From Betaproteobacteria bacterium UKL13-2 (GTDB taxonomy: Bacteria; Pseudomonadota; Gammaproteobacteria; Burkholderiales; Usitatibacteraceae): a DNA stretch of 64,000 nucleotides. Below are positions 2,230-41,790 of this stretch, one piece after another. The translations under genes were made by a program, and so were the position numbers. Location of the stretch: assembly GCA_001602455.1 (NCBI GenBank), contig CP012157.1, forward strand, positions 1,421,733-1,485,732. The letters run 5' to 3'. Position 1 is the stretch's first letter, and every line of letters begins with the position of its first letter. Below the pieces are notes generated by a model, which was not told where the DNA came from, did not search any database, and was given only the letters and a program-made list of their open reading frames with translations.

Positions 2230-2241
2230 TTGTCCGGACAA
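2230..2241. promoter_or_regulatory. TTGTCCGGACAA operator (site 1)
   Basis: A perfect 12-bp palindrome in the 84-bp divergent region between the enoyl-CoA hydratase gene (minus) and the alpha/beta-hydrolase gene (plus). The same word recurs at eight other control sites in the window. Its form fits a HutC-type GntR operator; binding by the GntR protein encoded at 32844-33566 is inferred. Confidence 0.8.
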
Positions 2242-2285
2242 ATTATATTCGTGATCCGCAACCTGTGCTTTCCGGAGTAATCAGC

Positions 2286-3101
2286 ATGAAACGACTGTTT
2301 ATCGAAACAAGCAAGGGGCAACTTCACGCACGGTCCCACGCAGGTGACTCCGCTTCTGCCACATTGCCACCGTTGGTGATGTTGCACGCGGCACCGGGAA
2401 GCGCGCTGATGTTGTCTAACTTGCAGGTGCGATTCAAGCAACGCTCGCTCGCCATTGATCTTCCCGGTATGGGTGACTCCGATCCGCTTCCACAGGGGAA
2501 CGCGGAGCCGAGCATCGGCGACTTCACGGACATGGTCGAGGAATCAATTTTGAAGACCTTCGATGAACCGATTGACGTCTATGGAACATTGTCGGGAGTG
2601 CGGGTAGCACTTGAGATCGCCAATCGGCAGTCCGTTCGCGTCAGACGCGTGGTGTTGGATGGCATCGGCATTCCCAAGCCTGAACAACTCGATGAATTGC
2701 TTGCCAACTACGCACCTGATTTCACGCCGGACATCAACGGTAACCACCTGATGAACACGTTCCAGCTTTGTCGTGACCAATATCTGTTCTATCCGTGGTA
2801 CGCGCGCGACGCCGAACATCGGCGCCCAACCGGTTTACCAAGTGCGGTAGCGTTACACACAAAGGTGATGGAAAGTTTGAAATCTGCGGCGGGATTTCGG
2901 CCATTGATTCGTGCCGCGTTTCGTTACGACTGTGCGGCTGCATTGTTGGCGATGAAACAACCCGCACTCATCACCGCTGACGGGTCTGCTGTACGCGCCG
3001 ACTTGCCTGTTCTTGAATTTCCACCCGCTGAGCCGCTCACATGCCCGTCGGATTTACTCGATAAACGTGCGGCGCGGATCGCGGCGTTTCTTGAAGCTTA
3101 G
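2286..3101 (+). CDS. alpha/beta-hydrolase-fold protein lacking the nucleophile serine
   Basis: A 271-residue protein. The ATG at 2286 has GGAG eight bases upstream. Fold markers are the oxyanion segment MLHAAPGSA near residue 35 and DLPGMGDSDP near 60. The nucleophile elbow, normally GxSxG, reads YGTLSGVRVALE, placing Leu102 at the serine position with Ser103 next to it. The lid region carries HLMNTFQLCRDQYLFYPWY, which closely matches the lid of the tandem protein at 7683-9389 (HLLWLWARLREQHLFFPW), so they form one paralogous family. It is transcribed divergently from the enoyl-CoA hydratase operon across operator site 1. The reaction is unknown. Confidence 0.85.
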   Translation: MKRLFIETSKGQLHARSHAGDSASATLPPLVMLHAAPGSALMLSNLQVRFKQRSLAIDLPGMGDSDPLPQGNAEPSIGDFTDMVEESILKTFDEPIDVYGTLSGVRVALEIANRQSVRVRRVVLDGIGIPKPEQLDELLANYAPDFTPDINGNHLMNTFQLCRDQYLFYPWYARDAEHRRPTGLPSAVALHTKVMESLKSAAGFRPLIRAAFRYDCAAALLAMKQPALITADGSAVRADLPVLEFPPAEPLTCPSDLLDKRAARIAAFLEA

Positions 3102-3410
3102 CCGCAGAGGAGGCCAATCAGCCCACACGCCGGTATGCCGGGGAAATAGAAGCGTATCCGGAATATCGCGTGGAATGGTGTTGTCACCACCCTTTTCGAG
3201 CGCTCACAATCTTGCCAAAATCAGCCAGAAGCCGCGCCTCCCGCAGTGTGACCAATTCAGCTCGCTAGACAGCGTAGTCCGAGCTTATCTGGTGTTCTCT
3301 CATTTGAAAACATGCGAGCCGCGTACGTTAGTGGCATTCAGCCATCACTAATTGTTCCAGGGCGAGACTGGTCTTCGGTGACCTCGTAGGCTGATACCGC
3401 GAGTCATACT
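3102..3410. other. about 300 bp without a recognisable gene
   Basis: I see no convincing reading frame, hairpin terminator or operator copy here. It marks the left edge of a patch (to about 4.5 kb) of small toxin-antitoxin-type remnants that separates the first hydrolase gene from the TonB receptor gene. Confidence 0.5.
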
Positions 3411-3812
3411 TTGCTTATTCCTGTAGTGCTGAAGGATGGTTCCGGCATCAGTTGCGGCGTAAACGGCCGAGGCTGTATAAAAACGTGCTCTCAGTTAAAT
3501 TTTGCTCGATTTGAAGGGCCCTCAAACCCTTACCCGATTCAAAACAATCGATTGCGGCGCGAACACCCAAGGGTTCGGACGGAGGTAGAGCGGATTGAGC
3601 GCGACGAATCTGCGCTGCTTGATGCTCTATTGAAAGCCCGTCAGGACGCGGGACTAACTCAAGCGCAGGTTGCCGAAAGAATGGGGACACAGGCTCCAGC
3701 CGTGGCGCGTCTTGAGCGCTCGCTGTCGACAGGGAAACACTCGCCGTCTGTCGCAACACTACGCAAGTACGTCAAGGCGTGCGGTAAGCGACTTGTTCTC
3801 CGCGTTGCCTGA
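3411..3812 (+). CDS. XRE-family helix-turn-helix protein, antitoxin-like
   Basis: The last 80 or so residues form a HigA-like antitoxin domain: ALLKARQDAGLTQAQVAERM is the HTH, followed by APAVARLERSL and a PSVATLRKYVKACGKRLVL tail typical of this family. The first 50 residues of the open frame do not resemble the family, and the true start is probably a later non-ATG codon near 3555-3590. No cognate toxin gene is adjacent, so this is either a solitary antitoxin or a remnant. It would bind DNA and repress its own promoter if active. Confidence 0.6.
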   Translation: MLIPVVLKDGSGISCGVNGRGCIKTCSQLNFARFEGPSNPYPIQNNRLRREHPRVRTEVERIERDESALLDALLKARQDAGLTQAQVAERMGTQAPAVARLERSLSTGKHSPSVATLRKYVKACGKRLVLRVA

Positions 3813-4028
3813 CTTATCTTACTGACAAGCTCGCTGGAAGACCGTCATCATGAACGCGGTCGAAACCGGCCAATAGCTGCCGTTCAAACGCATCGCCTAA
3901 TTTCATACGCTCATCCATCGAATGGCCCAACGAACAAGAATACTCCACCACTTAGAGTGCGATGGAGAGGGTTTAAGTCATTCGTGCGTCGCGCTTGACA
4001 ATCGAACGCACGTAAATACAATGTATTG

Positions 4029-4496
4029 ATGATCACGTTCGAGTGGGACCCGCCGAAAGCGGCAACTAACCTCAAGAAGCATCAAATATCGTTCGAAGAA
4101 GCGAGATCCGTCTTTTTTGATGAGTTCGCGGTACAGTTCTTCGACGAAGCGCACTCATTAGACGAAGAGCGGTTCCTGCTGTTGGGAATGAGTTCCGGTG
4201 CGAAATTGCTTATCGTTTGTCACTGCGAGAGAAATGAAGGCGAAGTTATTCGGATCATCTCTGCCCGTAAAGCGATGAAACGAGAAAGCGAGTTTTATCA
4301 AGGTGTGTTGCTGTGGATGCGGGCTGCACGTTCGCTCTCGGGTGATTGGACGGCAAATCGGACGGCAAATCGGACGGCACCGTGTTTGCCATCGCAGTTG
4401 ATAAACACGCACCTTTCTCCCTTACGTATTTGGCAAACACGGCCCGCGATGCTGTGGTCGGTCAGGCAAAAAATCGCTCGCCCGTTCACCTACTGA
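4029..4496 (+). CDS. BrnT-family toxin-like protein with abnormal C-terminal extension
   Basis: Residues 1-92 match BrnT ribonuclease-type toxins: ITFEWDPPKAATNLKKHQIS, FEEARSVFFDE, a core ending IRIISARKAMKRESEFY. BrnT proteins usually end close to this point. Here the frame runs on for about 60 residues of low-quality sequence that includes a 12-bp tandem duplication (about 4346-4380, giving TANRTANRT). No brnA antitoxin gene follows. I chose ATG 4029 over TTG 4026. The extension suggests loss of the native stop or a junction, so activity is doubtful. Confidence 0.65.
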   Translation: MITFEWDPPKAATNLKKHQISFEEARSVFFDEFAVQFFDEAHSLDEERFLLLGMSSGAKLLIVCHCERNEGEVIRIISARKAMKRESEFYQGVLLWMRAARSLSGDWTANRTANRTAPCLPSQLINTHLSPLRIWQTRPAMLWSVRQKIARPFTY

Positions 4497-4559: not shown

Positions 4560-6743
4560 CTACTTAAAGCGATAACGTAGATCGACACCATAGGTTCGTG
4601 GCACGTTTATGTACGCGTCGGCAATTCCCAGTGCTGAAATGTCAAACGCGCCTGTGTAGTAGAGCTTGTTGTTCAAGTTCTTACCCCACAAGGCAACCGA
4701 CCACTTGCCGCCTTTGGCGTCATATGCGACGCGGCCATCAACCAGCGAGTAGGCGTTGGTTTTGATGACTTCTGACGTCGCCAGATTTTGATAATGGTCG
4801 CCAACGTGTTTGATACCGGCATTAATGTTGACGTTGCCACCTTCCAGCCTGATTCGGTAGTTCGTGCCGATGCCATACTGCTGCTTCGGCGCTTGTTTCA
4901 ACGCTTTACCTGAGAATGTCCCGTTGTTTACGGCGCTGTAATTTTTATACTTGCCGTCAAGCGTGCCCAAGTGTGCATTGATCTGCCAATTGCTGGTGAT
5001 CTGGGCAACCGTCTCAAGCTCAAAGCCTTTCAACTCGGCGCTTGACGCATTGGTCAGATTCGAGACGCCGTTCGCATCAAAGGCTGTCAGTTGCAGGTCT
5101 TTGTAGTCGTTCTTGAAGTAGTTGATATTGAAGCGCCACTTGCCGTCGGCCATCGTCGTTTTCAAGCCAATCTCATACGACCTGACGGTTTCGGGCCTCA
5201 ACGTGGTGAACGCTGCAATCGAGCCGGCGCGCCCGTTGTATCCACCGCTCTTGAAACCGGTTGACGCAGAGACGTAACCCAACACTTCGCGGGTGAGCTG
5301 CGCGTCTAGGCCAAGTTTCCAGTCGGTGTTGTTCCAAGAGTCTGACTTGGCGACACGGAAGGCTTCAACGCCAGTGGTGCGGACGGAGATGATCGAAAAA
5401 TCCTTCGATTCGTGACTTGAACGGATGCCGGCTGTCATTTTCCAGACAGGACTAAAGCGGTAGTCCGCTTGGCCGTAAACGGCGGTCGCCTTGACGGTTT
5501 GTGCCAACGTGTTGGTCGCACCGGTCGCAAAGATATCTTGGCGGGTCGGTTGGTCGTTTTGCTCTGTCAGGAAGAACGCGCCTGCCGTCCAGCTAAGTGG
5601 ACCTTTACCTGTTGAAATCAACTGCGATTCATAACTGGTCTGACTTTGTCGCTGATCCTGGAAGAGATGGAACCCGGTGGCATTGGTGCCGTCGAGGTCG
5701 ATGTACAGCGTGTTGTCCATCTTGCGATAGGCGACGATGTTGCGCCACTCAAGTGATGCAAAATCGGTCGATGTCACAACAGAAAAGCCACTTTGGTCGA
5801 GGTCATTTCTGCCCGTGCCGGCCGGTAGGTTAGATTGAATCGTCAGCAAATCGCCGTCTGCATTGTTAACCGGGCGGCCGAATCGTACAGCAGCAGCCGG
5901 ATCGAGAACCCCGCTCGCATACTGCGGGCCGCTACGCTGTCTGAGGATGTCCCCCGCCACGGTCACACGGGTGGAACCGATGTTGAAGCCCAAGCTACCG
6001 CGCGCGCCATAGATCTGCTCATCGTTGACCACGTCGCCGTTGGTCAGATTTTTCAAATAGCCGTCGCGCGCCTTGGACATGACGCCAAAGGTAGCGTCAA
6101 CGCCGTCGGCGAGTTTGGTGCTGACCGATGCGCGCACATCCAATCGATGGAAGTTACCAGCGCGACCTTCGATCTCGAACTTTTCTGCGCCTGTTGGCTT
6201 GGCAGTGACGTAGCGTATCGCGCCGCCAGGAGCATTACGGCCATACAACGTACCTTGCGGACCACGCAATACTTCTACGCGGGTGATGTCGAACATGTCA
6301 AACAGTGCGCCGGTCACACGCGGGATATAGACATCATCGATGTAAATGGCGACTGAAGGATCGGCGGAGAAAAGTGATTCGTCTGTGCCCACGCCGCGCA
6401 TAAATATCTTTGCCGCCGATGAAGTGCCCGTTGCAGGTTCAACGACCACGTTGGGGATCTCAAACTTCATGTCGTCCAAACGGCGAATCTGCTTTTGCTC
6501 CAAGTCTTTTGCTGACAGGGTCGTAATCGCAACGGGAACCTTCTGCAACTCCTCCTCGCGCCGTTGCGCGGTCACCACGATATTTTCGAGCTTGTCGTCA
6601 GCTTTCGCCTCCGGCGTCGCAGCGGCGCTTTGGGCCGTTGCGGCGTTCATCGTCAGCGCGGAAACCGCCAGTGCGACAGCAACGTGCATCACGCTAAATT
6701 TGCCAAGGCTGGCCTGGCCACGTTGATTCAGGAATTGGTTCAT
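4560..6743 (-). CDS. TonB-dependent outer-membrane receptor
   Basis: A 727-residue receptor. The ATG at 6743 has GGAG seven bases upstream; the open frame continues further but has no signal peptide there. Residues 1-45 form a signal sequence with a hydrophobic stretch VALAVSALTMNAATAQ. A TonB-box-like IVVTAQRREEELQ is followed by the plug (VPVAITTL, MRGVGTDES, RVEVLRGPQGTLYGRNAPGG). The barrel ends RTYGVDLRYRFK with the terminal Phe near the end. It should import a siderophore-like or organic substrate across the outer membrane using TonB energy. Its promoter region (6744-7121) contains two operator copies, so it is probably co-regulated with the catabolic genes. Confidence 0.93.
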   Translation of the reverse strand: MNQFLNQRGQASLGKFSVMHVAVALAVSALTMNAATAQSAAATPEAKADDKLENIVVTAQRREEELQKVPVAITTLSAKDLEQKQIRRLDDMKFEIPNVVVEPATGTSSAAKIFMRGVGTDESLFSADPSVAIYIDDVYIPRVTGALFDMFDITRVEVLRGPQGTLYGRNAPGGAIRYVTAKPTGAEKFEIEGRAGNFHRLDVRASVSTKLADGVDATFGVMSKARDGYLKNLTNGDVVNDEQIYGARGSLGFNIGSTRVTVAGDILRQRSGPQYASGVLDPAAAVRFGRPVNNADGDLLTIQSNLPAGTGRNDLDQSGFSVVTSTDFASLEWRNIVAYRKMDNTLYIDLDGTNATGFHLFQDQRQSQTSYESQLISTGKGPLSWTAGAFFLTEQNDQPTRQDIFATGATNTLAQTVKATAVYGQADYRFSPVWKMTAGIRSSHESKDFSIISVRTTGVEAFRVAKSDSWNNTDWKLGLDAQLTREVLGYVSASTGFKSGGYNGRAGSIAAFTTLRPETVRSYEIGLKTTMADGKWRFNINYFKNDYKDLQLTAFDANGVSNLTNASSAELKGFELETVAQITSNWQINAHLGTLDGKYKNYSAVNNGTFSGKALKQAPKQQYGIGTNYRIRLEGGNVNINAGIKHVGDHYQNLATSEVIKTNAYSLVDGRVAYDAKGGKWSVALWGKNLNNKLYYTGAFDISALGIADAYINVPRTYGVDLRYRFK

Positions 6744-6765
6744 GAGGAACTCCGATTGTGGTGTG

Positions 6766-6832
6766 GTTGTGAGTTGTGAGTTGTGAGTTGTGAGTTGTGA
6801 TTTGTCAGTCGTCAGTTGTAGCTTGTGACTTG
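6766..6832. repeat. heptanucleotide tandem repeat in the receptor leader
   Basis: About five exact copies of GTTGTGA (6766-6800) followed by degenerate copies to 6832, lying 23-90 bp upstream of the receptor ATG, in its presumed 5' untranslated region. Slippage here could change the leader length. Confidence 0.75.
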
Positions 6833-6936
6833 TACAGGCCATTGGCTGCATCACGATTAAGTTAGATGTAACCAAGGCATTGCTCCAAGGGCGGTACCGA
6901 AACTTAACTTGTATTTTGTTGCAGGGCAGACTAGAT

Positions 6937-6948
6937 TTGTCCGGACAA
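6937..6948. promoter_or_regulatory. TTGTCCGGACAA operator (site 2)
   Basis: A perfect copy of the cluster operator in the divergent region between the TonB receptor gene and the gene at 7122. It lies inside a larger inverted repeat: a 13-bp arm starting CTAGATTTGTCC at 6931 is repeated in inverse at 6958-6970. Confidence 0.8.
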
Positions 6949-6952
6949 CTAT

Positions 6953-6964
6953 TTGTACGGACAA
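6953..6964. promoter_or_regulatory. TTGTACGGACAA operator (site 3)
   Basis: A one-mismatch copy of the operator with its centre 16 bp from site 2. The spacing of about one and a half helical turns and the shared inverted repeat suggest paired occupancy by regulator dimers. Confidence 0.7.
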
Positions 6965-7121
6965 ATCTAGTCTTATCGACTGATGGTGTCAAGATAATGA
7001 AACAAACCCGCCGTGAGCCCGCGCAAACCGCCGGTCTTCTACAACGCTGGCGCAAGAAGTAAGAGTGGCTACCACCTATCTTGAAACTGTCTTGAGGCGA
7101 CTGACCAATTTACGGAGCGCA

Positions 7122-7571
7122 ATGAATCCAATCAAACAGTTCATGCCGGCTTTGCTAAGGCATAACGGTATCTGGGAGGGCATCTACCACTTGGTTGATG
7201 CAGAAGGCAAAACGCTTGACCGGCATCACTCGTGCATAGAAGTGCGATTTCCCGAATCAGGCTCGTACCACTACACCCAGAAAAATTATTTCTGGTGGGG
7301 GGATGGACGCGACACACATGGTGAATATCCGGGGGTATGCCGCGATGGCGTCTTGTATTGGGACAACGAATTGATTCGCGGTAAAGCATGGTCGGTGGAT
7401 GAGCTATCCACCGTGCTCACATGGCAGCGCCACGATACGCCGGACGCATATTTGTACGAACTTATCGTCATTAACCAAACAAATGATCAGCGCAGCCGCA
7501 CTTGGCATTGGTTTCGGGATGGGGTGATCTATCAGCGTACCTTGATTGAAGAATCCAAGATTTCGGATTGA
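7122..7571 (+). CDS. uncharacterised lipocalin-like protein, paralogue of 30663-31172
   Basis: A 149-residue protein with no family I can name securely. Conserved blocks are HNGIWEGIYHLVD, EVRFPESGSYHYTQKNYF, WDNELIRGKAW and RTWHWFRDGVIYQRTLI. Each has a direct counterpart in the protein at 30663-31172 (HEGVWDGWYRHYD, CRFPESGPYPYHQTNYYSW, FDNDLIKGWAAE, RVWHWYRDGRIVSRTLI). The alternating aromatic pattern suggests a small beta-barrel ligand binder or enzyme, which is inference. The paralogue begins MSAKQMLPLL, which supports the ATG at 7122 (GGAG just upstream) over an in-frame GTG at 7065. Confidence 0.75.
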   Translation: MNPIKQFMPALLRHNGIWEGIYHLVDAEGKTLDRHHSCIEVRFPESGSYHYTQKNYFWWGDGRDTHGEYPGVCRDGVLYWDNELIRGKAWSVDELSTVLTWQRHDTPDAYLYELIVINQTNDQRSRTWHWFRDGVIYQRTLIEESKISD

Positions 7572-7618
7572 CGGACGTGCGCGATTGTCCAATCCAAGTT
7601 TTGCCGTTAATATGTAAT

Positions 7619-7630
7619 TTGTCCGGACAA
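7619..7630. promoter_or_regulatory. TTGTCCGGACAA operator (site 4)
   Basis: A perfect copy, palindromic for 14 bp with flanking T and A, 47 bp after the stop of the preceding gene and about 52 bp before the preferred start of the tandem hydrolase gene. It probably marks a promoter for the 7683-11874 gene run. Confidence 0.8.
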
Positions 7631-7682
7631 ATTATTGATGGCAGTTTGTTCCCTCCGGGCGATGCAACCGGACTTAGCGCGT

Positions 7683-9389
7683 ATGTCGATCTCTTTCCCC
7701 GCTGTTTCCACGCAGCCCGTATCAACCCAGTTCGTCGATGTTGCTGGTCGGCGGGTGTTGGTGCGATTTGCCGGATGTGGCCCGGCGGTGTTGTTGCTCC
7801 ACCAGTCGCCGCAAAATTCGCGCGCCTTGATCCCTTGGATTGAGCGCTTGTCGACTCGCTATGCGGTGTTCGCGCCGGATACGCCGGGCTTTGGCTATTC
7901 CGATCCATTGCCACTCGCACAGCCGACCATCCCGGACTATGCTGCGGCGTTGAATGCGCTCCTCGATGCCCTCGGTATTGAGCGGGTCATCGTAAACGGT
8001 GTTCATACCGGCGCGGTGACCGCACTGCGATTTGCCCTTGACTTCCCGGCACGGGTGGGTGGATTGATCTGTGATGGTTATGCACGTTTCAACGCCGACG
8101 AACGTCAGCTCTTGCTGAATGGTTATCTGCCGCCATTCGAGCCGCAGTGGGACGGTAGCCATTTGTTATGGTTGTGGGCGCGTCTGCGTGAGCAGCATCT
8201 GTTTTTTCCTTGGAACACGCCGACCAAGTCCGCGCGCATGGCCTATCCGGCACCGTCAACGCAGAAACTCAACGGTGATGCGCTCGACATCCTCGACGCC
8301 GGGGACGGTTATCGTGCCGGCTACCGCGCGCCGTTTTTATACGACGACGCGACGGCCGCATCGCGGCTGACGGTTGCGACGCGCATCTTTTACCGTGCCG
8401 AGGATGTGCTCGCCACGCATTTGCCGCGACTGCAGAGCCTGCCTGCAAATGTGACGGCTGAGATTGTCAACGGCGGTCCACAGGGCTTGATCGACAAGAC
8501 TGACGCATTCATCGCCTTGCGAGCAGCGAATGCAAGTAGTGTTGATGCCGCGGTAGCAATTCGCACGGCGGTTTCAACTCGGCGGCGGGTGTGCAACACG
8601 ACACATGGGGCGATGTGTGCGCTGATCGCGGCCAATGGCGGCGATCTTGCGAGTTCGTTGGTTGTGGTGCATCTGAGTGACATCGGCACACCGGCCCGGA
8701 TTCCAGTCGACGTGCCACACGGCACACCGGTGATCGCACCGGAGTTACCCGGACACGGCGCGTCGCAAGTTTGGTCGGCGGAGGCGCTTACGCCGATTGC
8801 GGTCGCACAGTCCGTGTTGGAGGTTTTGCAGGCGCTTGGTGTGACACGTTTTGCGGTCAGCGGCGATGGTGCCGCCGACGCAATTGCAGCGGCGCTGGCA
8901 CAGATCTCGGCGGTAACTCCTGCGGGGCCGCGTTGCGAACAGATGCGCTTGCACAATCCGATGCTGCTCAACGACGCCGAGCGTGAGCAGTTTCTCGCTC
9001 AGTTGCCAGACCTGACGCCGCACGCCACCGGCGCGCATCTGCTTGCCGCATGGAACTGGGCGCGGATGAAGGCGCTGTTCTGGCCTTGGCAGCAGCCAAC
9101 CATCGCTGCCGCACGCAAGGTCGATGCGCCGGCTCCGGTGCGAGTACATACAGAAGTCGTGGAGATATTGCGTGCCGGTGAAATGTTCGCGCCGCTTTGG
9201 CGGGCGGCGTTAACGGAAACGGCATTTACCGCAATGATAGATTTTGCCGGGCCTATCACTGTGCAATGTGACGACGAACCCGAACGGGTACGTATCGTCA
9301 ACGCATTGGCAAAAACACTTGGCCTTGTCGAGGCGACATTGTCGGCAGGTAAACAGTCAACCGGAATCAGATCATGGCAGAAGCCCTAA
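7683..9389 (+). CDS. tandem (two-module) alpha/beta-hydrolase-fold protein
   Basis: A 568-residue protein made of two related modules. Module 1 (about 15-290) has LLHQSPQNSRALIPW, APDTPGFGYSDP and the elbow NGVHTGAVTALRFA, where His108 occupies the nucleophile position. Module 2 (about 295-560) has PELPGHGASQVW and a degenerate elbow SGDGAADA with Gly396 at the nucleophile. Both modules and the protein at 2286 share a lid motif of the form HLL..W...R...F.PW. Starts at 7638 or 7662 are possible; 7683 gives MSISFPAVS and a leader from operator site 4 close to that of the 2286 gene. The stop overlaps the next gene by 16 bp. A two-module protein with no serine in either elbow is unusual; the reaction is unknown. 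Confidence 0.8.
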   Translation: MSISFPAVSTQPVSTQFVDVAGRRVLVRFAGCGPAVLLLHQSPQNSRALIPWIERLSTRYAVFAPDTPGFGYSDPLPLAQPTIPDYAAALNALLDALGIERVIVNGVHTGAVTALRFALDFPARVGGLICDGYARFNADERQLLLNGYLPPFEPQWDGSHLLWLWARLREQHLFFPWNTPTKSARMAYPAPSTQKLNGDALDILDAGDGYRAGYRAPFLYDDATAASRLTVATRIFYRAEDVLATHLPRLQSLPANVTAEIVNGGPQGLIDKTDAFIALRAANASSVDAAVAIRTAVSTRRRVCNTTHGAMCALIAANGGDLASSLVVVHLSDIGTPARIPVDVPHGTPVIAPELPGHGASQVWSAEALTPIAVAQSVLEVLQALGVTRFAVSGDGAADAIAAALAQISAVTPAGPRCEQMRLHNPMLLNDAEREQFLAQLPDLTPHATGAHLLAAWNWARMKALFWPWQQPTIAAARKVDAPAPVRVHTEVVEILRAGEMFAPLWRAALTETAFTAMIDFAGPITVQCDDEPERVRIVNALAKTLGLVEATLSAGKQSTGIRSWQKP

Positions 9390-12292: not shown

Positions 12293-12297
12293 TCGCC

Positions 12298-33566: not shown

Positions 33567-33655
33567 TGATAAAAATCAGATCATTGAAATGTGGGGTCGA
33601 TATCCATCTGCCATATTCTGATGATTGCCCGGAAAGCAAACTCGGAGAGCACAAT

Positions 33656-33667
33656 ATGTCCGGACAA
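33656..33667. promoter_or_regulatory. ATGTCCGGACAA operator (site 6)
   Basis: A one-mismatch copy of the operator in the divergent region of gntR and the MmgE/PrpD gene. It lies near the expected -35 region of a TATAAT promoter at 33682-33687. Confidence 0.75.
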
Positions 33668-33693
33668 CTTTATTATGCGCTTATAATCAAAAT

Positions 33694-33705
33694 ATGTCCG
33701 GACAA
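33694..33705. promoter_or_regulatory. ATGTCCGGACAA operator (site 7), overlapping the MmgE/PrpD start
   Basis: A one-mismatch copy whose centre is 38 bp from site 6. A TATAAT at 33682-33687 lies between them. The ATG of this palindrome is in frame with the MmgE/PrpD gene, so the operator may also be its start codon. Confidence 0.75.
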
Positions 33706-35124
33706 ATTTATCTGAATGCGTCGACAAAAGCCAATCTTGCCGAATCGGTCGGGCCAAACGCGAGCATCCTGACAATTCTTGCGGCAACACTTGCGGCACC
33801 CGTCGATGAGGCGACGCGCCGCCGTGCGGCGTCTCATGTACTCGATTGGCTGGGGTCGACGGTGATGGGCGCGATGAGACACGGGGCGGCCGGGTTTCGT
33901 GCGAGTATCGCGGCTAACGCGACGGGCCCGAGCCGGGTGATTGGTGCCGGGCGCACTGACTGGTGGTCGGCGCTGCAAGTGAATGCTGCGCTGGGGAACA
34001 TCATGGAAATGGACGATCTGCATCGTACCTCCATCTTGCATCCAGGGCCTGTGATTGTACCTGGGGCTATCGCCGTCGCCGAGCACATTGGTGCCACTGG
34101 CGAGGCGCTGCTCGATGCGATCGTGCGGGGCTATGAAGCGACTATTCGTATAGGCCGCGCACTTGGTACTGGTCACTACAAGTATTTTCACAACACCAGT
34201 ACCTGCGGCAGCTTCGGTGCCGCTGCTGCATCCGCTTCGCTACTGAGGCTATCGCCGCTGCAAACGACATGGGCACTCGCCAATGCGGGTAGTCGCACGG
34301 GTGGGCTTTGGCAAATGCGCCACGAGGCTTGCGAGACAAAGTCGCTACATAACGTAATGGCCGCGCAGACCGGTGTGCAAAGTGCGTTTCTCGCCATGCA
34401 CGGCGTCCGTGGGCCGACCAAGCTGCTTGAAGGGCCGCAGGGATTATTCGCGGCGACTGCTGATCACGCTGACCCTCATGCGGTGGTGCTGCAGTTGGAC
34501 AGCGATCCATACTGGCTGATCCATGACGTTAGTTTCAAGCCGTGGCCAGCTTGCCGCCACGCGCATCCCGCGATTGACGCCGCGATGGTAGTGGCACCGC
34601 AGGTGCTGCACCCCTGTATCGCGTCGGTTCTGGTGGAAACCTATAAGAGTGCGATTGATTTCTGCGATAAGCCTAATCCCACGACGGAGCTCGAAGCGAA
34701 ATTTAGCTTGCAGCATTCCGTCGCCGTCGCTTTACTTCAAGGCGCCAAGCAGCAACGCCCCACACAGAACGATTTTGCGCCTGCTGCGCTGAGCCAACCG
34801 GATATCGTGGCCTGCCGCAATTTGGTCAAGGTCGTGGAGGATCAGGAAATGACATGCGCCTTTCCACGTCACTATCAGGCCCGTGTGACGGTGACCTTAG
34901 ACAATGGTGCGGTTCTTGCACATACGCAGCACGATGCATGGGGAGATCCTGAATTGCCTTTGTCAATGGATGGCTTGCAAGCAAAGTTTCGCGAACTGGT
35001 GACGGGCGCGGGGGTATCGGCGAATGTGACAAAAGAGCTTCTACGCACGACGCTCGAATTAGCAACAACCTCAATGGCGTCTGACTGGACAGCGCATTGG
35101 CCGACACTTGGTGCGGCGAAATGA
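33694..35124 (+). CDS. MmgE/PrpD family protein
   Basis: About 476 residues of the 2-methylcitrate dehydratase-like fold: RRAASHVLDWLGSTVMGAMR, VNAALGNIMEMDDLHRTSIL, GYEATIRIGRALG and a final part with KAKFRELV-like AKFRELVTGAG. Family members dehydrate or isomerise tricarboxylic or related acids; the exact substrate is unknown. The ATG at 33694 lies in operator site 7, seven bases after TATAAT and with no ribosome site, which suggests a leaderless message; a later start such as near NASTKANL cannot be excluded. ATGA overlap links it to the next gene. Confidence 0.85.
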   Translation: MSGQIYLNASTKANLAESVGPNASILTILAATLAAPVDEATRRRAASHVLDWLGSTVMGAMRHGAAGFRASIAANATGPSRVIGAGRTDWWSALQVNAALGNIMEMDDLHRTSILHPGPVIVPGAIAVAEHIGATGEALLDAIVRGYEATIRIGRALGTGHYKYFHNTSTCGSFGAAAASASLLRLSPLQTTWALANAGSRTGGLWQMRHEACETKSLHNVMAAQTGVQSAFLAMHGVRGPTKLLEGPQGLFAATADHADPHAVVLQLDSDPYWLIHDVSFKPWPACRHAHPAIDAAMVVAPQVLHPCIASVLVETYKSAIDFCDKPNPTTELEAKFSLQHSVAVALLQGAKQQRPTQNDFAPAALSQPDIVACRNLVKVVEDQEMTCAFPRHYQARVTVTLDNGAVLAHTQHDAWGDPELPLSMDGLQAKFRELVTGAGVSANVTKELLRTTLELATTSMASDWTAHWPTLGAAK

Positions 35125-36521
35125 GTAGTACTGAGCGTCGTGCTGAGGTCGCCCCGTGTGAGCACGTTGATCGTATTGTGGCGTACTTGAAGTCGCATCG
35201 TGATCCGTTGTCGGTGCCGATTGAAGCGCGCCAAGCGGCAAAGAAATTCTTGTTTGATAGCGTCGGCGTTGCGCTCGCTGGTGCCACAGTGTCGGAGTCT
35301 GATTTGGTGCGGCGAGTGGTTTCAAGTTGGGGCGAGGGCAGCGATGCCACCGTTTGGGGCAGCCATAAAAAACTGCCGGCACCCTCAGCGGCAATGGTGA
35401 ACGCGTTTCACATTCACAATCAGGAATTCGATTGTGTACATGAAAAAGCGGTGGTGCATCCGATGGCAGTGATCCTCGCTGCGCTGATGGCGTATGCGGA
35501 ACGTAATGGCCAAGTAACGGGCACAAAATTCTTAGCCGCGCTTGCAATTGCGGTAGATGTGGCGACCGTAATCGGCATGACCGCCACCAAACCGATTCGT
35601 TTTTTTCGCCCTGCACAGTGTGGCTGTTTGGGCGCTGCGGTTGGTATGGCCTATCTGGCGGAGATGGACGAGGGCGGCATCAAAAACACCTTGGGGCTCG
35701 CCTACAGCCAACTCGCAGGAACGATGCAGGCGCATATTGAAGGCACACCAACACTTGCATTACAGGTGGCCTTTGCGGCGCGCTCAGCGGTCAACGCGGT
35801 CGATCTCGCCATACTTGGCTTTCGTGCCCCGCATGACGTGCTGGACGGCAAGTACGGCTATTTTGCGTTGATTGAAGATGGCGCGGCCAACGTGGCGCCG
35901 TTTGCCGCGCTTGGCAAGGTCTGGCAAATCACCCGCGTGTCGCACAAGCCATACCCGACGGGGCGCGCCGCGCAGGGTGCGATCTCCGGTTTGCAACAAC
36001 TTCAGCGTGAACACGGATTTATCGCGGCGGATGTGCAACGTGTTGAGTTGCACGCGCCGCCGCTTATCCGGCAACTCGTTGACCGCCCGTATCGTGATGA
36101 TATGCCGGTGAACTATGCGCGGCTGTGTGTATCGTATCTGCTCGCTGTCACGCTGCGCGACGGTACGGTGGGGCTTGACGCCTACCGAGAGACCAATTTG
36201 CGTGGCGGCGAACTCAAGGCGATCGCCGCAAAAGTTGTTGTTGTGGCCGATGGCAACGCCGACCCCAACGCCCTGGCGCCGCAATCGATCACTATTGTGT
36301 TGAACGACGGTCGAATTGTTACCGCGCACCAAGAGTATATCTACGGTTCTCCGGAGGCACCGATGACCATCGACGCGCAGCGGGATAAATTTATCGGTTG
36401 CTGCCGAAACGCGAAATGGCCGCTGGACGACGCGAGCATCGCCGCGCTAAGCCACGCTATTCATCACATCGAGCAGACGAGCGATGCCTCCGCTATCGTT
36501 GGGCTAACCATCGGGCGCTGA
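35121..36521 (+). CDS. MmgE/PrpD family protein (second copy)
   Basis: A 466-residue protein from ATG 35121, overlapping the upstream stop. RQAAKKFLFDSVGVALAGAT and VNAFHIHNQEFDCVHEKAVV are the helical-domain blocks, and KPYPTGRAAQGAISGLQQL begins the second domain. It shares the fold but little sequence with the copy in front of it, so the two probably form a heteromer or handle successive intermediates. No signal peptide. Confidence 0.87.
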   Translation: MSSTERRAEVAPCEHVDRIVAYLKSHRDPLSVPIEARQAAKKFLFDSVGVALAGATVSESDLVRRVVSSWGEGSDATVWGSHKKLPAPSAAMVNAFHIHNQEFDCVHEKAVVHPMAVILAALMAYAERNGQVTGTKFLAALAIAVDVATVIGMTATKPIRFFRPAQCGCLGAAVGMAYLAEMDEGGIKNTLGLAYSQLAGTMQAHIEGTPTLALQVAFAARSAVNAVDLAILGFRAPHDVLDGKYGYFALIEDGAANVAPFAALGKVWQITRVSHKPYPTGRAAQGAISGLQQLQREHGFIAADVQRVELHAPPLIRQLVDRPYRDDMPVNYARLCVSYLLAVTLRDGTVGLDAYRETNLRGGELKAIAAKVVVVADGNADPNALAPQSITIVLNDGRIVTAHQEYIYGSPEAPMTIDAQRDKFIGCCRNAKWPLDDASIAALSHAIHHIEQTSDASAIVGLTIGR

Positions 36522-36540
36522 TCTCTGGCTCACTATTCCC

Positions 36541-36571
36541 TCTTCACCCTTCACCCTTCACCCTTCACACC
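36541..36571. repeat. CTTCACC short tandem repeat
   Basis: Three or four copies of a CTTCACC heptamer directly before the start of the CoA ligase gene, which therefore lacks a good ribosome site. The length of the tract could alter translation. Confidence 0.6.
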
Positions 36572-37972
36572 ATGCCCCAGCCCCTCTATTTTGATTCGTT
36601 CGACTGGCCGTCGTTAAAACAGGCCTATCCCATTGGCGCGGATTTTATGACGCGCTACAAAGGTATCAGTCGCGACCGTTTGTTTGGGATTCAAGACGCG
36701 CAATTTAAGCGCTGTATGGCACGTGGCTGGAAGATTCCTTTTTATCAACGGCTATGGGGTGCGAAGGGGATTGAAGCCGGTGACATCAAGGGACTAGAAG
36801 ACATCACAAAGTTGCCAACCTTCTCCAAGACCGAGTTGATGGAGAGTGTTGAAATATCGCCGCCACTGGGCGACTATCACGGTCTTGATAGTTATGACGA
36901 GGCGACCCGCCCACCGATGATTCTGCACACCACCAGTGGCACCACCGGCCGACCACAGCCGCTGGTGTTTGGACCGCGCGGTCGTGAAATACAAAACTTG
37001 CTGCTGGGACGCGCCTATACCTTTCAAGGTATCGGCGAAGGCGATACGGTGCATTCAGTGTACGGCCACGGCCTGATTAACGGTGGTCATTATGTGCGTG
37101 AGGCGGTGCTGCACTACACGCGAGCGGTGTTTTTGTCAGCGGGTACTGGCGTTGAAACTCGGTCGCTTCAGCAAGTGCAGGTCATGCGTGATTTTGGCGT
37201 GACGGCAGTCGTAGGATTCGCGGACTACATCAAAAAACTTGCGGAAGTTGCGCATGAATCTGGCATCGTGCCGGGACGCGATATTCCAGTGCGCGTGATT
37301 TCTGGACACCTTGGGCGCGAATCGCGCGAGGCAATTTCCGCTTCTTGGGGCGACTGCGAAATTTATGATTGGTATGGCGTTGGTGATACCGGACTGATCG
37401 CTGCCGAAGGCCCAGATCACGATGGCCTCTATGTCATGGAAGACGCGCAATACGTCGAGATTGGTCATGTCGATACGGATATTCCTGTCGCCGATGGCGA
37501 AACTGGCAACTTGATCGTGACCTGTTTGTACAAAGATGACGTGTATCCATGTATTCGCTTCAATACTAAAGACGTATCAGCGGTAAAGGCGGGGGCATCG
37601 AACATTGGGCTTGGCTTTAAGCGGATTGAAGGATTTCTCGGTCGCTCAGACAATATGATCAAACTGCGCGGTATCAACATTTACCCGCAGGGAATGGCGC
37701 CGGTACTCGAACAAAACAATGCATATGCTGGCGAGTACTTGTGCGTGGCGGAGCGCGACGTCGATGGTCGCGATGATCTCATGGTACGGGTCGAAGTGAA
37801 GGCTGCTTCAGTCGGTGATGCGGGTCTTGCAAAGGCATTTGAAGAGCTACTGAAGCAGCGTTTTGGTGTGCAGATGAAGGTCGCCTTGGAGTTGCCCGGT
37901 GCGCTCGCCCCCTTAACCGGAACCGAGACGCGACAAAAACCGATTCGCTTGATTGATAAACGCTTCAAGTAG
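36572..37972 (+). CDS. PaaK-like AMP-dependent CoA ligase
   Basis: A 466-residue adenylate-forming enzyme of the phenylacetate-CoA ligase type. The phosphate-binding loop is ILHTTSGTTGRPQPLVFG near residue 118; YDWYGVGDTGLIAAEGP is the A5-type block; FKRIEGFLGRSDNMIKLRG near 350 is the hinge with its Asp and Arg; QMKVALELPGALAPLTGTET leads to the C-terminal Lys region KPIRLIDKRFK. It would activate an aromatic or other carboxylic acid with ATP and CoA, so it may supply the first CoA ester of the pathway. The ATG at 36572 follows a CTTCACC tandem repeat instead of a clear Shine-Dalgarno. Confidence 0.9.
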   Translation: MPQPLYFDSFDWPSLKQAYPIGADFMTRYKGISRDRLFGIQDAQFKRCMARGWKIPFYQRLWGAKGIEAGDIKGLEDITKLPTFSKTELMESVEISPPLGDYHGLDSYDEATRPPMILHTTSGTTGRPQPLVFGPRGREIQNLLLGRAYTFQGIGEGDTVHSVYGHGLINGGHYVREAVLHYTRAVFLSAGTGVETRSLQQVQVMRDFGVTAVVGFADYIKKLAEVAHESGIVPGRDIPVRVISGHLGRESREAISASWGDCEIYDWYGVGDTGLIAAEGPDHDGLYVMEDAQYVEIGHVDTDIPVADGETGNLIVTCLYKDDVYPCIRFNTKDVSAVKAGASNIGLGFKRIEGFLGRSDNMIKLRGINIYPQGMAPVLEQNNAYAGEYLCVAERDVDGRDDLMVRVEVKAASVGDAGLAKAFEELLKQRFGVQMKVALELPGALAPLTGTETRQKPIRLIDKRFK

Positions 37973-37993
37973 TGGCCTGAGAGTGCATCCGGC

Positions 37994-39325
37994 ATGATCG
38001 ACTTTTCCACATTAGTCCAAGACATCAAAGCACGCGACCGCGAGGTGGGCGCGTTTGTGGCGTTTGTGGAGAATCCAAAGTCCAATATCGACGGGCAGTT
38101 TCAGGCAAAAAGCGCTGAAAACGCCCTACAGGATTGGACTTTTGCAATCAAGTCCAACATTGCCGTGGCCGGGCTGGCACATACTGCGGGCATTGGTGGT
38201 TACCGCGATCGCATAGTGTCAGCCGACGCTTTTTGTGTGACACGACTACGCGCGGCTGGGGCTGTCATCATCGGCACGGTGAACATGGAAGAGGCCGCAC
38301 TTGGTGCTGTCACCAACAATCCGCACTTTGGCAAAACACACAATCCGCTTCGTCATGGATACACTGCCGGCGGATCGAGTGGCGGCAGTGCGGCGGCGGT
38401 GGCAGCAGGCATGGTGCGCGTGGCGCTTGGCTCCGACACGATGGGCTCATGTCGCATACCTGCCGCATACTGCGGCGTGGTCGGTTTCAAGCCGAGTTAC
38501 GGCCGTATCAGCATGCGTGGAGTGGAACCATTGTCGCGCAGGCTCGATCATATTGGCATCCTCGCCAACAATGTTGCCGACGTGCGCGATGTGCTTGCGG
38601 CACTCGATTTTTTTGATGCGAACGACGCCGATGCACGTCAGTATGAAAACACGTTGATGGCGTCAGCTCAGCCGATTCGTCTGGCGGTGCTTGACGAAGC
38701 ATCGCGTGCCGGGCTCGATGATGATGTGCGTCGTGACTATGAGAGCGCGTTGGGCATCATTTCGCGTTCAGGTTACCAGCTTGCAGAACGTGCGGTCGAT
38801 CAAACAAAATTGGCGGCGGCGCGGCGCGCGGGTTTGTTGATTTGTGAAGCCGAGCTTTCAGTTACCTTGGCCGACTTGCTGGCCAAAGACAATGGCGGTG
38901 TTTCCCCCCACTTATGCAAACTTATCGCCTTCGGTGCCGCCAAATCGCCGGCAGACATCTCAAACGCCCATGCGGCCATTGATGCAACCGCGTCAGTATT
39001 GGATGAACAGTTAGACGGCGTTGATGCGCTGTGTTGGCCCACCGCACCACAGACTGCATTTGCCTTTTCCGCAACGATTCCCGCGAACCAAGCTGACTTC
39101 ACCTGTCTGGCCAATTTCACTGGCGCACCGGCGATCAGCCTGCCGATGCCGTGCGCGCCGGGCACCATGCCCAGCGGCTTGCAACTGATGATGGCATCGG
39201 GTGAGGATGGCGCGCTGCTTAATCTTGCCGAATCGCTTGCCGAATCGCTCGCCGAATCGCTTGCCGAATCGCTCGCCGAATCGCTCGCAATAATAGTAGA
39301 GTCCACCCGACGAAACGCGATATAA
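37994..39325 (+). CDS. amidase signature family protein
   Basis: A 443-residue amidase. The catalytic Lys is in FAIKSNIAV, the Gly-Ser-rich loop [17 protein letters not shown] carries the cis-Ser, and the nucleophile Ser follows in [15 protein letters not shown]. It would hydrolyse an amide to an acid and ammonia or amine, possibly feeding the ligase. Near the C-terminus a 12-bp unit is repeated five times, coding LAES five times, which is absent from the family. It starts 21 bp after the ligase gene and ends 22 bp before the MFS gene. Confidence 0.92.
39224..39283 (+). repeat. 12-bp in-frame tandem repeat (LAES x5)
   Basis: Five units of CTTGCCGAATCG or CTCGCCGAATCG inside the amidase gene. 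Because the unit is a multiple of three, copy-number change keeps the reading frame. The encoded amphipathic helix may be tolerated as a C-terminal extension. Confidence 0.85.
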
Positions 39326-39347
39326 CGCCCGACTAGGAAAACTTGCC

Positions 39348-40595
39348 ATGACCGATACGCCTATCCCGCTCGCCGCCAAGCCGAATACCATTTACCCTTG
39401 GGTAATGGCCATCATGGCCATGCTGTTGTTGCTGGTCACCAACGGGCTTACCACCACTGGCATCACGGCCTTCGATAGTGCGCTGCTAAAGGAATTCGGC
39501 TGGTCGCGTGGTGAGTTGAAATTTCGTGACCTGCTCACGCTCGTCGTTGCCGGGCTGTGCGCGCCATTCGCCGGGGCGATGATTGATCGTTTTGGCGTGC
39601 GGCGCTTGATGATGTTGGGGCTGGGGATTTTTGCCGTGCTGTATTTCCTCTACGGCCAGATTCAGGACAAAACCCATCTCTACGCCATCCACTTTGGCTT
39701 CGGCATCATCTTGGTAATGGCGGGAATCAACGTCGCTGTGATCCTTGCTTCTCAGTGGTTTGTAAAACATCGGGGCACGGCGGTGGGTCTTGCGGTTGTG
39801 GGCAGCAGTTTGGGTGGAATTGTGCTGCCGCCGTTGATCATTAGTCTCATCGGCGATTACGGTTGGCGTATCGCGTTCGGCATCGTCGCCATCATTCCGG
39901 TGGTGTTCATGCTGTTGACTTGGTGGCTGGTGCGCACACCCGCGGAGAAGAACACCGTACCCTTGGGCCACGGCGTGCCGAACAAATCCGCCGCCGCGCC
40001 ATCGCCGAATGACTTGCGCTATAAAGAAGCCTTAAAGACCCGCAGCTTCTGGGCGCTATCTTTTGTTGCAATGGCCACCTTTTATTCGGTGTTGGCCGTG
40101 GTTGCACACCTGATTCTGTATGTCATTCCACTGGGGTTCGATCCCAAATACGCGCTCGCGTTGTTGTTTCTTCCAGGCCTTTTTAGCAAATTTCTGTTTG
40201 GCTTCCTAGCCGACATCCTGCCGCCAAAGTGGGTATTTCGCGGCAACCTGTTCATCATGCTGATTGGCATGGTGCTGCTGATTACCTTTGATAAAGATTT
40301 GGTCAAAGCGGCGGTATTGATCATCGGCTTTGGTTGGGGTGGGGCGTATACCCTGATTCAGTTACAGGCCATAAACAACTTCGGCTTGACTGACGCTGGC
40401 AAGATATTGGGAACCATCACCATGATGGATGCCATCGCCGGTGGGCTCGGCATTTGGCTCACGGGGGAGATGTTCGATAAGTTCGGCAACTACCACGTTG
40501 CGTTTTATATTTTGTGTGCCCTCGTCGCGGCGGCGTTTTTGGTGAGCTTCTTTGTTAAACGCGAGATCAAAGAGGTGCCGGTGGTTGCGGCGTGA
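39348..40595 (+). CDS. MFS transporter
   Basis: A 415-residue permease with twelve predicted membrane segments. It starts WVMAIMAMLLLLVTNGLTTT, has the MFS loop motif GAMIDRFGVRRLMMLGLG between helices 2 and 3, and GFLADILPPKWVFRGNLF in the equivalent loop of the second half. It belongs to the oxalate/formate or monocarboxylate-type branch. It would carry an acid or a related metabolite across the inner membrane. The ATG at 39348 follows AGGAAA. Confidence 0.9.
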   Translation: MTDTPIPLAAKPNTIYPWVMAIMAMLLLLVTNGLTTTGITAFDSALLKEFGWSRGELKFRDLLTLVVAGLCAPFAGAMIDRFGVRRLMMLGLGIFAVLYFLYGQIQDKTHLYAIHFGFGIILVMAGINVAVILASQWFVKHRGTAVGLAVVGSSLGGIVLPPLIISLIGDYGWRIAFGIVAIIPVVFMLLTWWLVRTPAEKNTVPLGHGVPNKSAAAPSPNDLRYKEALKTRSFWALSFVAMATFYSVLAVVAHLILYVIPLGFDPKYALALLFLPGLFSKFLFGFLADILPPKWVFRGNLFIMLIGMVLLITFDKDLVKAAVLIIGFGWGGAYTLIQLQAINNFGLTDAGKILGTITMMDAIAGGLGIWLTGEMFDKFGNYHVAFYILCALVAAAFLVSFFVKREIKEVPVVAA

Positions 40596-40679
40596 GGGGG
40601 GAAGGGAGAAGGGGGAGGGGGAAAAAAGGGGGAAGGCAGAGTCGGTAGTTTTTGAGAATGGATCGTAAAGGAAAATGAA

Positions 40680-41585
40680 ATGTGCAAATTAAAATCAATC
40701 ATCGCGGCAACGTTGGTTGCAGCGGCAGGACTGAGCAGCGTCGCCTTTGACAGTGCCGCGTACGACGTAACGAAGCCGGAAAATTCTGGTGAGGCTTTTG
40801 TCCGCATGCGGGGAGACACGTCAGGGGCAGACGTGATCGCCGACTGGCACACCACCGTGTTTATTGTGGAGCCAGGCAAGCGCGCAGTCGCGGTAATGCG
40901 GTTGGATGGCTTCAACGTAGGCCGTGCCAGCAAAAATGCGGATGGCTCCTACCAATGGTTGTCGCGTGAAGTGGCGTACTACCGCGATCTAAAAACCGGA
41001 AAAATTCTCGATAAATGGGAAAACCCGCTCACCGGCAAAATTAATGACGTCATTCAAGTCATCAACGACCCGGTGAACAGCGTATTTGGCCGACCGGGTG
41101 GCAGCCTGCCATGGCGCGTGAAGGGGGACGATGTGTTCATGACCATTGACGTGCCACTTGCGTACCCAAATTCGTTACTGCCGGCGGATTTTCCGGAGGA
41201 GTCGACAGGGCCGATGTACTTTGCGACGGAGAGCTTTATGTTCTTTTCAAGGCAGAGTGATTTTGCCAACCCCAAATTGACTTCCGTGCCGACCACTTAC
41301 TCGTGGGCGCGTACCGGCCCGTGGCTACCGTGGATGAAGATGGGGACTCGTCCCGGATATGTGCTGTACACCGGGCAGGGCAAAAAACTCAAGAATGCGG
41401 CGGAACTCGATCCAGTGGTGCGTGAGTACACAGAAAAAAATCATCCAGATTTCATGTTTGCACCGAAGGCATTTGTGGCACCCAACGAGACCAGTTGGAC
41501 CTACTACCGGAAGCTATCTGGCAAGAAAGTGACTAACCCGGTGGTTGGCGGTAAAGACGCCCCCGTCGCCGCATCCCAGAAGTAG
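40680..41585 (+). CDS. exported DUF1838 family protein
   Basis: A 301-residue protein with a signal peptide (IIAATLVAAAGLSSVAFDSA) after ATG 40680, which follows AAAGGA. Family blocks are DKWENPLTGKINDVIQVIND, followed by PVNSVFG, then SLLPADFPEESTGPMYFATE, TTYSWARTGPWLPWMKMG and YRKLSGKK. DUF1838 has no proven reaction; members recur in catabolic clusters with TonB receptors. A polypurine tract (40597-40636) separates it from the MFS gene. A terminator follows its stop. Confidence 0.85.
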   Translation: MCKLKSIIAATLVAAAGLSSVAFDSAAYDVTKPENSGEAFVRMRGDTSGADVIADWHTTVFIVEPGKRAVAVMRLDGFNVGRASKNADGSYQWLSREVAYYRDLKTGKILDKWENPLTGKINDVIQVINDPVNSVFGRPGGSLPWRVKGDDVFMTIDVPLAYPNSLLPADFPEESTGPMYFATESFMFFSRQSDFANPKLTSVPTTYSWARTGPWLPWMKMGTRPGYVLYTGQGKKLKNAAELDPVVREYTEKNHPDFMFAPKAFVAPNETSWTYYRKLSGKKVTNPVVGGKDAPVAASQK

Positions 41586-41622
41586 CATCGCCATGTAATT
41601 GACAGTGACGAAGATGGCATCA

Positions 41623-41650
41623 AAAAGGGGCAGCCGACGCTGCCCCTTTT
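41623..41650. terminator. rho-independent terminator after the DUF1838 gene
   Basis: AAAAGGGGCAGC pairs with GCTGCCCCTTTT around a 4-bp loop. It closes the 33694-41585 transcription unit before the next operator region. Confidence 0.85.
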
Positions 41651-41747
41651 GTTTGTGCGGGAAATTGTGCATTGCCAGCCCAGTAGTTTTGCCGAGTTGA
41701 CATTACCGTCGCGACGATTGTTGCAGCCTGCCAACGGCAGGTTGGGG

Positions 41748-41759
41748 TTGTCTGGACAA
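41748..41759. promoter_or_regulatory. TTGTCTGGACAA operator (site 8)
   Basis: A one-mismatch copy upstream of the second TonB receptor gene, with its centre 31 bp from site 9. It lies near the expected -35 region of the GATAAT at 41773-41778. Confidence 0.75.
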
Positions 41760-41778
41760 CTTCCTTGAAAATGATAAT

Positions 41779-41790
41779 ATGTCCGGACAA
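41779..41790. promoter_or_regulatory. ATGTCCGGACAA operator (site 9)
   Basis: A one-mismatch copy immediately after GATAAT, in the same layout as site 7 (operator, -10 box, operator). It would place a bound repressor over the start point of transcription. The receptor ATG is a further 108 bp downstream. Confidence 0.75.

Follow-up and report, generated by a model that had tools for sequence, protein, structure and literature searches.

What controls the catabolic gene cluster carried by a 64,000-nucleotide stretch of the Betaproteobacteria bacterium UKL13-2 genome (contig CP012157.1, positions 1,421,733 to 1,485,732; the whole stretch is called the window here)? An earlier note listed nine copies of a 12-bp palindrome in the window, assigned them to a single HutC-type GntR regulator encoded among the genes, and proposed that one signal links about 30 genes over 40 kb. 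We followed up this proposal computationally. The palindrome is, with high probability, the operator of the GntR/UTRA protein predicted at 32844-33566, and comparisons between sequences support a regulon that appears larger than the one proposed.

All nine listed positions hold the 12-mer or a one-base variant of it: four copies are exact (2230, 6937, 7619 and 11936) and five have one mismatch. When up to two mismatches are allowed, the window contains 12 matches versus 2.9 expected, and none of 100 shuffles reached 12. A better fit than the 12-mer is the 18-bp palindrome AAKTTGTCCGGACAAMTT, which came out of a two-strand alignment of the genome's 13 candidate operators. Among their 26 half-sites, positions 3, 4 and 5 from the centre are invariant and position 8 is identical in 25. 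The GT-N4-AC layout is present at all 13 sites, with a central CG pair in 12 of them and TG in the other one. With up to three mismatches, the 18-mer finds exactly the nine listed sites in the window versus 0.07 expected (0 of 100 shuffles reach nine), a test that is not independent, since the 18-mer was built from these sites among others.

In the whole genome (3,387,087 bases), the 12-mer occurs at 8 exact and 12 one-mismatch places, and the reversed pattern at one; base composition predicts 0.19 exact copies (P ~3e-11). The 18-mer matches 18 places, including the 13 candidate operators, and its reversed form matches one. The 11 places with 0-2 mismatches are all candidate operators, and the seven with three mismatches comprise two candidates (6950 and 41745 in the window) and five apparent background matches. 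The earlier note had allowed that the word might prove equally frequent in unrelated parts of the genome; instead, ~50 kb of the 3,387 kb contain 11 of the 20 places that match exactly or with one mismatch. The 12 one-mismatch places divide into five on the earlier list, one at 46508 and six elsewhere in the genome. We rejected 46508, the tenth such match in the window, as an operator because it lies inside the open reading frame (ORF) 45266-47506 and is probably background. Five places outside the window (61026, 620631, 2052569, 2552678 and 3041403) were rejected likewise, all being inside ORFs, unlike 1103900, which lies between large ORFs.

The nine candidate operators of the window, all given on the plus strand, are listed below, with the relatives G189, G152 and G250 named where they retain the site.
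2227-2244, plus: operator O1, between the enoyl-CoA hydratase gene (minus) and alpha/beta hydrolase A (plus); exact in G189.
6934-6951, plus: operator O2a, between TonB receptor 1 (minus) and a DUF3598-like gene (plus).
6950-6967, plus: operator O2b, partner of O2a 16 bp further; the 16-bp-spaced pair is also found in G189 and G250.
7616-7633, plus: operator O3, ahead of the alpha/beta hydrolase B - FAD oxidase - glyoxalase-fold operon; exact in G189 and G250.
11933-11950, plus: operator O4, ahead of the HapK-led operon; exact in G189 and G250.
33653-33670, plus: operator O5a, in the divergent control region of gntR and MmgE1; retained in G189 and G152.
33691-33708, plus: operator O5b, containing the likely MmgE1 start ATG (33694), 6 nt past a TATAAT box.
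41745-41762, plus: operator O6a, the variant TTGTCTGGACAA ahead of TonB receptor 2.
41776-41793, plus: operator O6b, immediately 3' of a GATAAT box.

These sites are conserved beyond their surroundings. In G189, whose regulator is 86% identical, every gene marked by the word here has it too, as do the divergon that precedes the window and the three unlinked genes described below, and the counterparts of all eight exact words are kept exactly while their flanks drift. G152 (regulator also 86%) was compared at seven of the 11 site groups, with the same outcome. Over these 18 comparisons (all 11 groups versus G189, seven of them also versus G152), 214 of 216 core bases were kept versus 478 of 720 flanking bases (20 + 20), some of the flanks including a neighbouring operator or coding sequence, which inflates their agreement. 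G250 is more distant (regulator 54%); it has the word at the regulator/MmgE1 region, hydrolase B and the HapK operon. It also has a 16-bp-spaced operator pair at a TonB receptor that shares 30% identity with receptor 1, and a counterpart of the variant pair at 41748/41779 precedes another TonB-receptor gene, spaced 32 rather than 31 bp. The TTGTCTGGACAA variant of O6a (41745-41762) itself recurs ahead of a TonB-receptor gene in G250, which perhaps reflects a double role as part of the -35 box.

Is the word tied to this regulator rather than to others? The genome encodes three UTRA proteins, and only that of the window has the word upstream. With up to two mismatches, the word is absent from the other GntR-type loci of the genome (~3 kb around each); we therefore rejected these loci and the remaining two UTRA proteins as binders, lack of a nearby word being weak evidence. 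The scan of related genomes that the earlier note had suggested bore out the association. Among 28 family genomes, the six with a regulator orthologue at 54-100% identity have 8, 10, 10, 8, 5 and 3 exact words, the count for G410 being taken from six of nine places listed, exact ones first. The other 22 have one exact word in total, in G407; this was discarded because it lies inside a 344-aa (amino acid) reading frame, presumably dihydroorotate dehydrogenase. Relatives lacking the regulator contain the word 0-11 times when one mismatch is allowed. The co-occurrence of orthologue and exact words gives a Fisher P of 2.7e-6, if the genomes are independent.

Homologues of the regulator (E up to 1e-20) occur in 46 of 399 sampled genomes of the order and, in a sample of the class, in seven of 369, own genome included. 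We inspected 330 bp upstream of 41 of the better-scoring homologues, namely 30 of 70 matches in the order plus 11 others. Twenty regions have the word with at most one mismatch, eight of them exactly. For 400 palindromes of the same composition, the mean over the same regions was 0.05 and the largest count nine, with no exact copies; the palindrome scoring nine is presumably close in sequence to the word itself. The word-bearing homologues span eight of 22 genera, several are only 31-36% identical, and overall the homologues with a nearby word range from 31 to 54% identity. The one-mismatch form ATGTCCGGACAA in G577, a genome from outside the order, precedes an MmgE1-MmgE2-ligase-amidase-CaiB series 1.3 kb from a 41%-identical regulator, and this genome is counted among the 21 lacking the word in the 330-bp region. 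In G175, ATGTCCGGACAA stands between the regulator and MmgE1. The gene neighbourhoods vary, from the MmgE core (G175, G577) to CaiB-led clusters; thus the word tracks the regulator lineage, not one pathway.

The word is not restricted to the cluster, which corrects the earlier note. Only four of the eight exact copies in the genome are in the window; one lies 3.6 kb before it and three are unlinked, at 1.11, 1.87 and 2.40 Mb, and all eight sit in control regions. The copy at 1418134 occupies a divergon between an acyl-CoA dehydrogenase/isochorismatase-type/two polysaccharide-deacetylase-fold operon and a LeuC/LeuD-like (aconitase-family) pair. The unlinked copies precede a second DUF1838 gene (by 15 bp), a cyclophilin/FG-GAP gene and the gene for ETF-ubiquinone oxidoreductase (ETF-QO; L028:6574-6585, genome position 2396073). 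DUF1838 genes of this kind (E up to 1e-20) are present in six of the 28 family genomes, exactly those with the regulator, and five of these six have an orthologue 69-100% identical to the second DUF1838 gene. In G250, its 71%-identical counterpart is part of the cluster and adjoins an exact word. The ETF-QO gene was identified in 26 of the 28 genomes, and its upstream DNA was compared in 23, one of them with only 27 bp; the exact word is present in three (own genome, G152 and G189), all regulator-bearing. Other members of the genus keep a TATAAT box at ETF-QO, as judged by eye, without the operator. Since the operator is restricted to these three genomes and the others have TATAAT alone, we suggest that it was recruited recently.

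The regulator itself fits the HutC-type assignment made before. It has an N-terminal GntR winged helix (PF00392, 67.7 bits, cut-off 27) and a C-terminal UTRA domain (PF07702, 42.5 bits, cut-off 23.8), the architecture of NagR (YvoA) of Bacillus subtilis and DasR of Streptomyces, which act on dre-type sites and provide its four best solved-structure matches. Its Leu32, Arg42, His43 and Gly63 align with Arg38, Arg48, Met49 and Gly69 of NagR. In the account of NagR bound to GTGGTCTAGACCAC (PMC4333415), Arg38 reads G-5, Arg48 reads G-4 and Gly69 anchors the wing. The operator AATTTGTCCGGACAAATT is spaced like that of NagR, with T-6, G-4, T-3, C-2 and their partners identical. In the candidate operators, G occupies -4 in all 26 half-sites, with Arg42 matching NagR Arg48, and T occupies -5 in all 26, with Leu32 in the place of NagR Arg38, which reads G-5. 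Arg42 would thus read the G of each TGT half, as has been shown for NagR Arg48. One position further out, the replacement of Arg38 by Leu32 would correspond to that of G by T, and at the centre the replacement of Met49 by His43 to that of TA by CG. According to a comparative study (PMC4494728), the residue after the second Arg is linked to the central base pairs in HutC proteins, and a His there to G/C in YtrA proteins. The same source gives the HutC-type consensus as GTMTAKAC, with GT and AC 4 nt apart, as a trend and not a defining rule. The earlier claim that HutC-type operators have this form therefore stands for the GT-N4-AC spacing and fails for the published central TA, since the candidate operators do not match the strict GTMTAKAC. 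The residue and base changes relative to NagR fit the recognition scheme without proving it. At the aligned positions, R/R/V and M/Q/G are found in the two remaining UTRA proteins of the genome, which have no such site. A rule that Leu/Arg/His at 32/42/43 gives this operator was rejected, since several homologues with these residues have no word upstream.

Several observations weigh against the assignment of the word to this regulator. Two of the homologues with the same Leu/Arg/His (L041 and L043, 39% identity) lack the word, so that residues 32/42/43 are insufficient predictors, and in total 21 of the 41 upstream regions lack it at up to one mismatch. A distant homologue (31-42%) is encoded in three of the 22 family genomes that lack a close orthologue, and in two of these three it adjoins a one-mismatch word. 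The co-occurrence test is partly circular, because the cluster sites vanish along with the cluster, and the genomes are not independent; the ETF-QO comparison is only a partial control for this circularity. TonB receptor 2 has a variant pair here and one exact site in G189 and G152, with flanks that do not align (10 and 7 of 40 bases). The ETF-QO site is lineage-specific, being present in three of the five regulator-bearing genomes with upstream DNA and absent from G250 and G406, and its position upstream of the -35 region makes simple occlusion less evident. Moreover, G069, which lacks the orthologue, has a one-mismatch word 176 bp ahead of ETF-QO (L163), probably a remnant or a chance match. 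A regulator of another family that uses the same word would also be compatible with the sequence.

Could the word have another meaning? The possibility that a different transcription factor encoded elsewhere in the genome binds it, with the GntR gene merely one target, is raised by the three exact sites unlinked to that gene, and we consider it very unlikely: the word adjoins homologues of this GntR protein in eight of 22 genera despite differing neighbour genes, family genomes that lack a close orthologue almost never have exact words, the ~3 kb around each of the other GntR-type loci of the genome contain no word at up to two mismatches, and the GT-N4-AC layout is that of HutC-type sites (PMC4494728). 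A dispersed repeat or a chance palindrome without regulatory function would account for the background one-mismatch copies inside reading frames and for the 0-11 near matches in relatives without the regulator. Against it stand the location of every exact copy in a control region, the cores kept in G189 while flanks drift, the excess of exact copies (8 versus 0.19) and the single place of the reversed 18-mer versus 18. A genome-wide repeat was rejected on these whole-genome counts, and we regard this explanation as practically negligible.

A third alternative keeps the GntR protein as the binder and makes it an activator, or a repressor at some promoters and an activator at others. The ETF-QO operator would suit this, being centred ~45 bp upstream of the start expected from the conserved TATAAT (hand count), just outside the -35 region, as would the genus members without the regulator that keep TATAAT there but not the operator. 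Repression, judged by eye, suits the sites at three other genes: at MmgE1, at TonB receptor 2 and at the unlinked DUF1838 gene, the operator is found either on the -10 box, past it, or just ahead of the ribosome-binding site. In addition, NagR is described as blocking the transcription of its targets (PMC4333415), and DasR is filed as a repressor (PMC4918961). We therefore consider activation unlikely, and keep the reading of the word as the operator of a GntR-type repressor. In this reading, a protein dimer would bind each palindrome. The regulator's most likely action would be to sit on -35, -10 or start regions and thereby repress the catabolic operons, both TonB receptor genes and the operon that encodes it; a small-molecule inducer derived from the pathway would release it by binding to the UTRA domain, much as in NagR. 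Repression, inducer release, operon extents and binding are all inferred from sequence, with promoter elements read by eye. Of the two MmgE1 operators, one overlaps the -35 region expected there and the second would cover +1 to +12, and at the unlinked DUF1838 gene the operator lies just ahead of the ribosome-binding site; together with the sites at TonB receptor 2, this placement points to repression by occlusion. The ETF-QO operator stands outside the -35 region, and this gene may be tuned instead of being switched off.

What seems the most unusual feature of the regulon is an operator that apparently doubles as a start codon. The sites had been placed in control regions or just upstream of genes, which is correct in general; that at 33694 is not simply upstream, since the operator contains the likely start codon of MmgE1. 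In all six regulator-bearing genomes of the genus, the MmgE1 operator is ATGTCCGGACAA, in frame with MmgE1 (Met-Ser-Gly-Gln). A box at most one base from TATAAT ends 6 nt before the ATG in five of the six (own genome, G189, G152, G250 and G405), and a TATAAT-like box ends 7 nt before it in G406. In G250, G405 and G406, an in-frame stop lies 1-4 codons upstream with no start codon between, ruling out an earlier MmgE1 start. We consider it an even call whether a leaderless MmgE1 mRNA starts at the A of ATGTCCGGACAA, so that the repressor site, +1 to +12 and the first codons would share one 12-base element. Such a start within the operator would explain why this site has ATG instead of TTG. Outside the genus, the leaderless-start reading weakens: in G577 the ATG form is in frame with MmgE1 but the box spacing differs, and in G175 the ATG form is present but the frame from it does not run into MmgE1.

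The genes predicted to lie under these operators in the window are the following.
46-1092, minus: carbon-nitrogen hydrolase, possibly part of the enoyl-CoA hydratase operon.
1422-2201, minus: enoyl-CoA hydratase.
2286-3101, plus: alpha/beta hydrolase A, start codon picked by eye.
4560-7055, minus: TonB-dependent receptor 1 ORF, overextended at its 5' end.
7065-7571, plus: DUF3598-like gene 3' of O2, Pfam match below cut-off; conserved in G189.
7635-11874, plus: alpha/beta hydrolase B, FAD_binding_4 oxidase and glyoxalase-fold protein, from domain matches.
11984-21720, plus: HapK operon, first HapK, SDR, PuuE-like (polysaccharide-deacetylase-fold) hydrolase, HpcH/HpaI lyase and MaoC/RipB-like hydratase, then acyl-CoA dehydrogenase, two CaiB CoA-transferases, glyoxalase-like protein and amine oxidase; extent presumed from gene order.
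29588-32803, minus: rest of the presumed gntR operon, with methyltransferase, small protein, DUF3598-like and glyoxalase-fold genes; extent presumed from gene order.
32844-33566, minus: GntR/UTRA regulator of 240 aa, from domain matches and residue alignment to NagR.
33694-41585, plus: presumed operon of MmgE1, MmgE2, AMP-binding-type ligase (match to the C-terminal domain only), amidase, MFS and DUF1838 genes; extent presumed from gene order.
41779-44538, plus: TonB-dependent receptor 2 ORF, gene start probably near 41899.

On a hand count guided by gene order, ~30 genes of the window would belong to the predicted regulon, together with ~6 that immediately precede the window and three unlinked ones. 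It is a HutC-type GntR regulon, a previously known kind of system, and differs from its known relatives in several respects. Most sites are near-perfect palindromes, which natural B. subtilis NagR sites are not, and the targets differ from the NagR/DasR genes for N-acetylglucosamine use. The HutC histidine-utilisation repressor belongs to the same subfamily (NCBIfam TIGR02018, E 8.7e-25), but the score of 87.4 bits is below the equivalog cut-off of 220, and no hut genes are among the annotated regulon genes. The best NCBIfam model is that of the phosphonate regulator PhnF (TIGR02325, E 2.1e-26), again below its equivalog cut-off (92.9 versus 156.8 bits) and with no phosphonate genes among the annotated regulon genes. 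The open-licence literature searched gave a single match to the exact word, in Drosophila stem-cell work, and RegPrecise, which lies outside this search, may list the motif. There were no GntR, UTRA or regulon papers with the 11-mer among the matches listed, and no matching title or abstract start for DUF1838, for MmgE/CaiB/DUF3598/HapK/UTRA combinations, for imidase clusters or for GntR operators with leaderless starts.

The domains probably outline a pathway of TonB uptake, amide/imide cleavage, CoA transfer and itaconate-like cleavage. The TonB receptors would import a compound whose amide or imide bonds would then be opened or cleaved, and a CoA-linked dicarboxylate would be fed through an itaconate-like CaiB - MaoC - HpcH step. 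The known itaconate degradation operon encodes RipA, RipB and RipC; as in that operon, CaiB, MaoC (RipB/Ich model, E 3.3e-73) and HpcH/HpaI genes stand together here. The score of 245.3 bits is below the RipB/Ich cut-off of 340, and the gene set is far larger, with amide- and imide-type hydrolases. None of the 10 proteins compared with NCBIfam scored as high as the cut-off of any of the models shown. An imide or a tetrapyrrole fragment was considered as a possible substrate, in view of the PuuE-like hydrolases, the amidase, the isochorismatase and the itaconate-like triad. Membership of the regulon narrows this search, and the operator can find further members in related bacteria. Orphan catabolic genes are thereby joined in a single regulon open to testing, for which the regulator is named, an 18-bp operator defined and contact residues predicted, and which reaches genes far from the cluster, including the central respiratory-chain gene ETF-QO. 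The paired residue and base change relative to NagR (TTGTCCGGACAA versus TGGTCTAGACCA) offers a clean test of the proposed GntR recognition code.

Two further loci lie among these genes. At 3411-4496, inside the cluster, an XRE-type helix-turn-helix gene adjoins a BrnT toxin gene, a probable toxin-antitoxin pair; the statement that the cluster has one regulator is correct if this XRE-type gene is set aside. At 25227-27783 on the minus strand, two genes without an operator split the cluster between the HapK and gntR operons, and the first of them resembles what we take, from its motif, to be a DNA methyltransferase.

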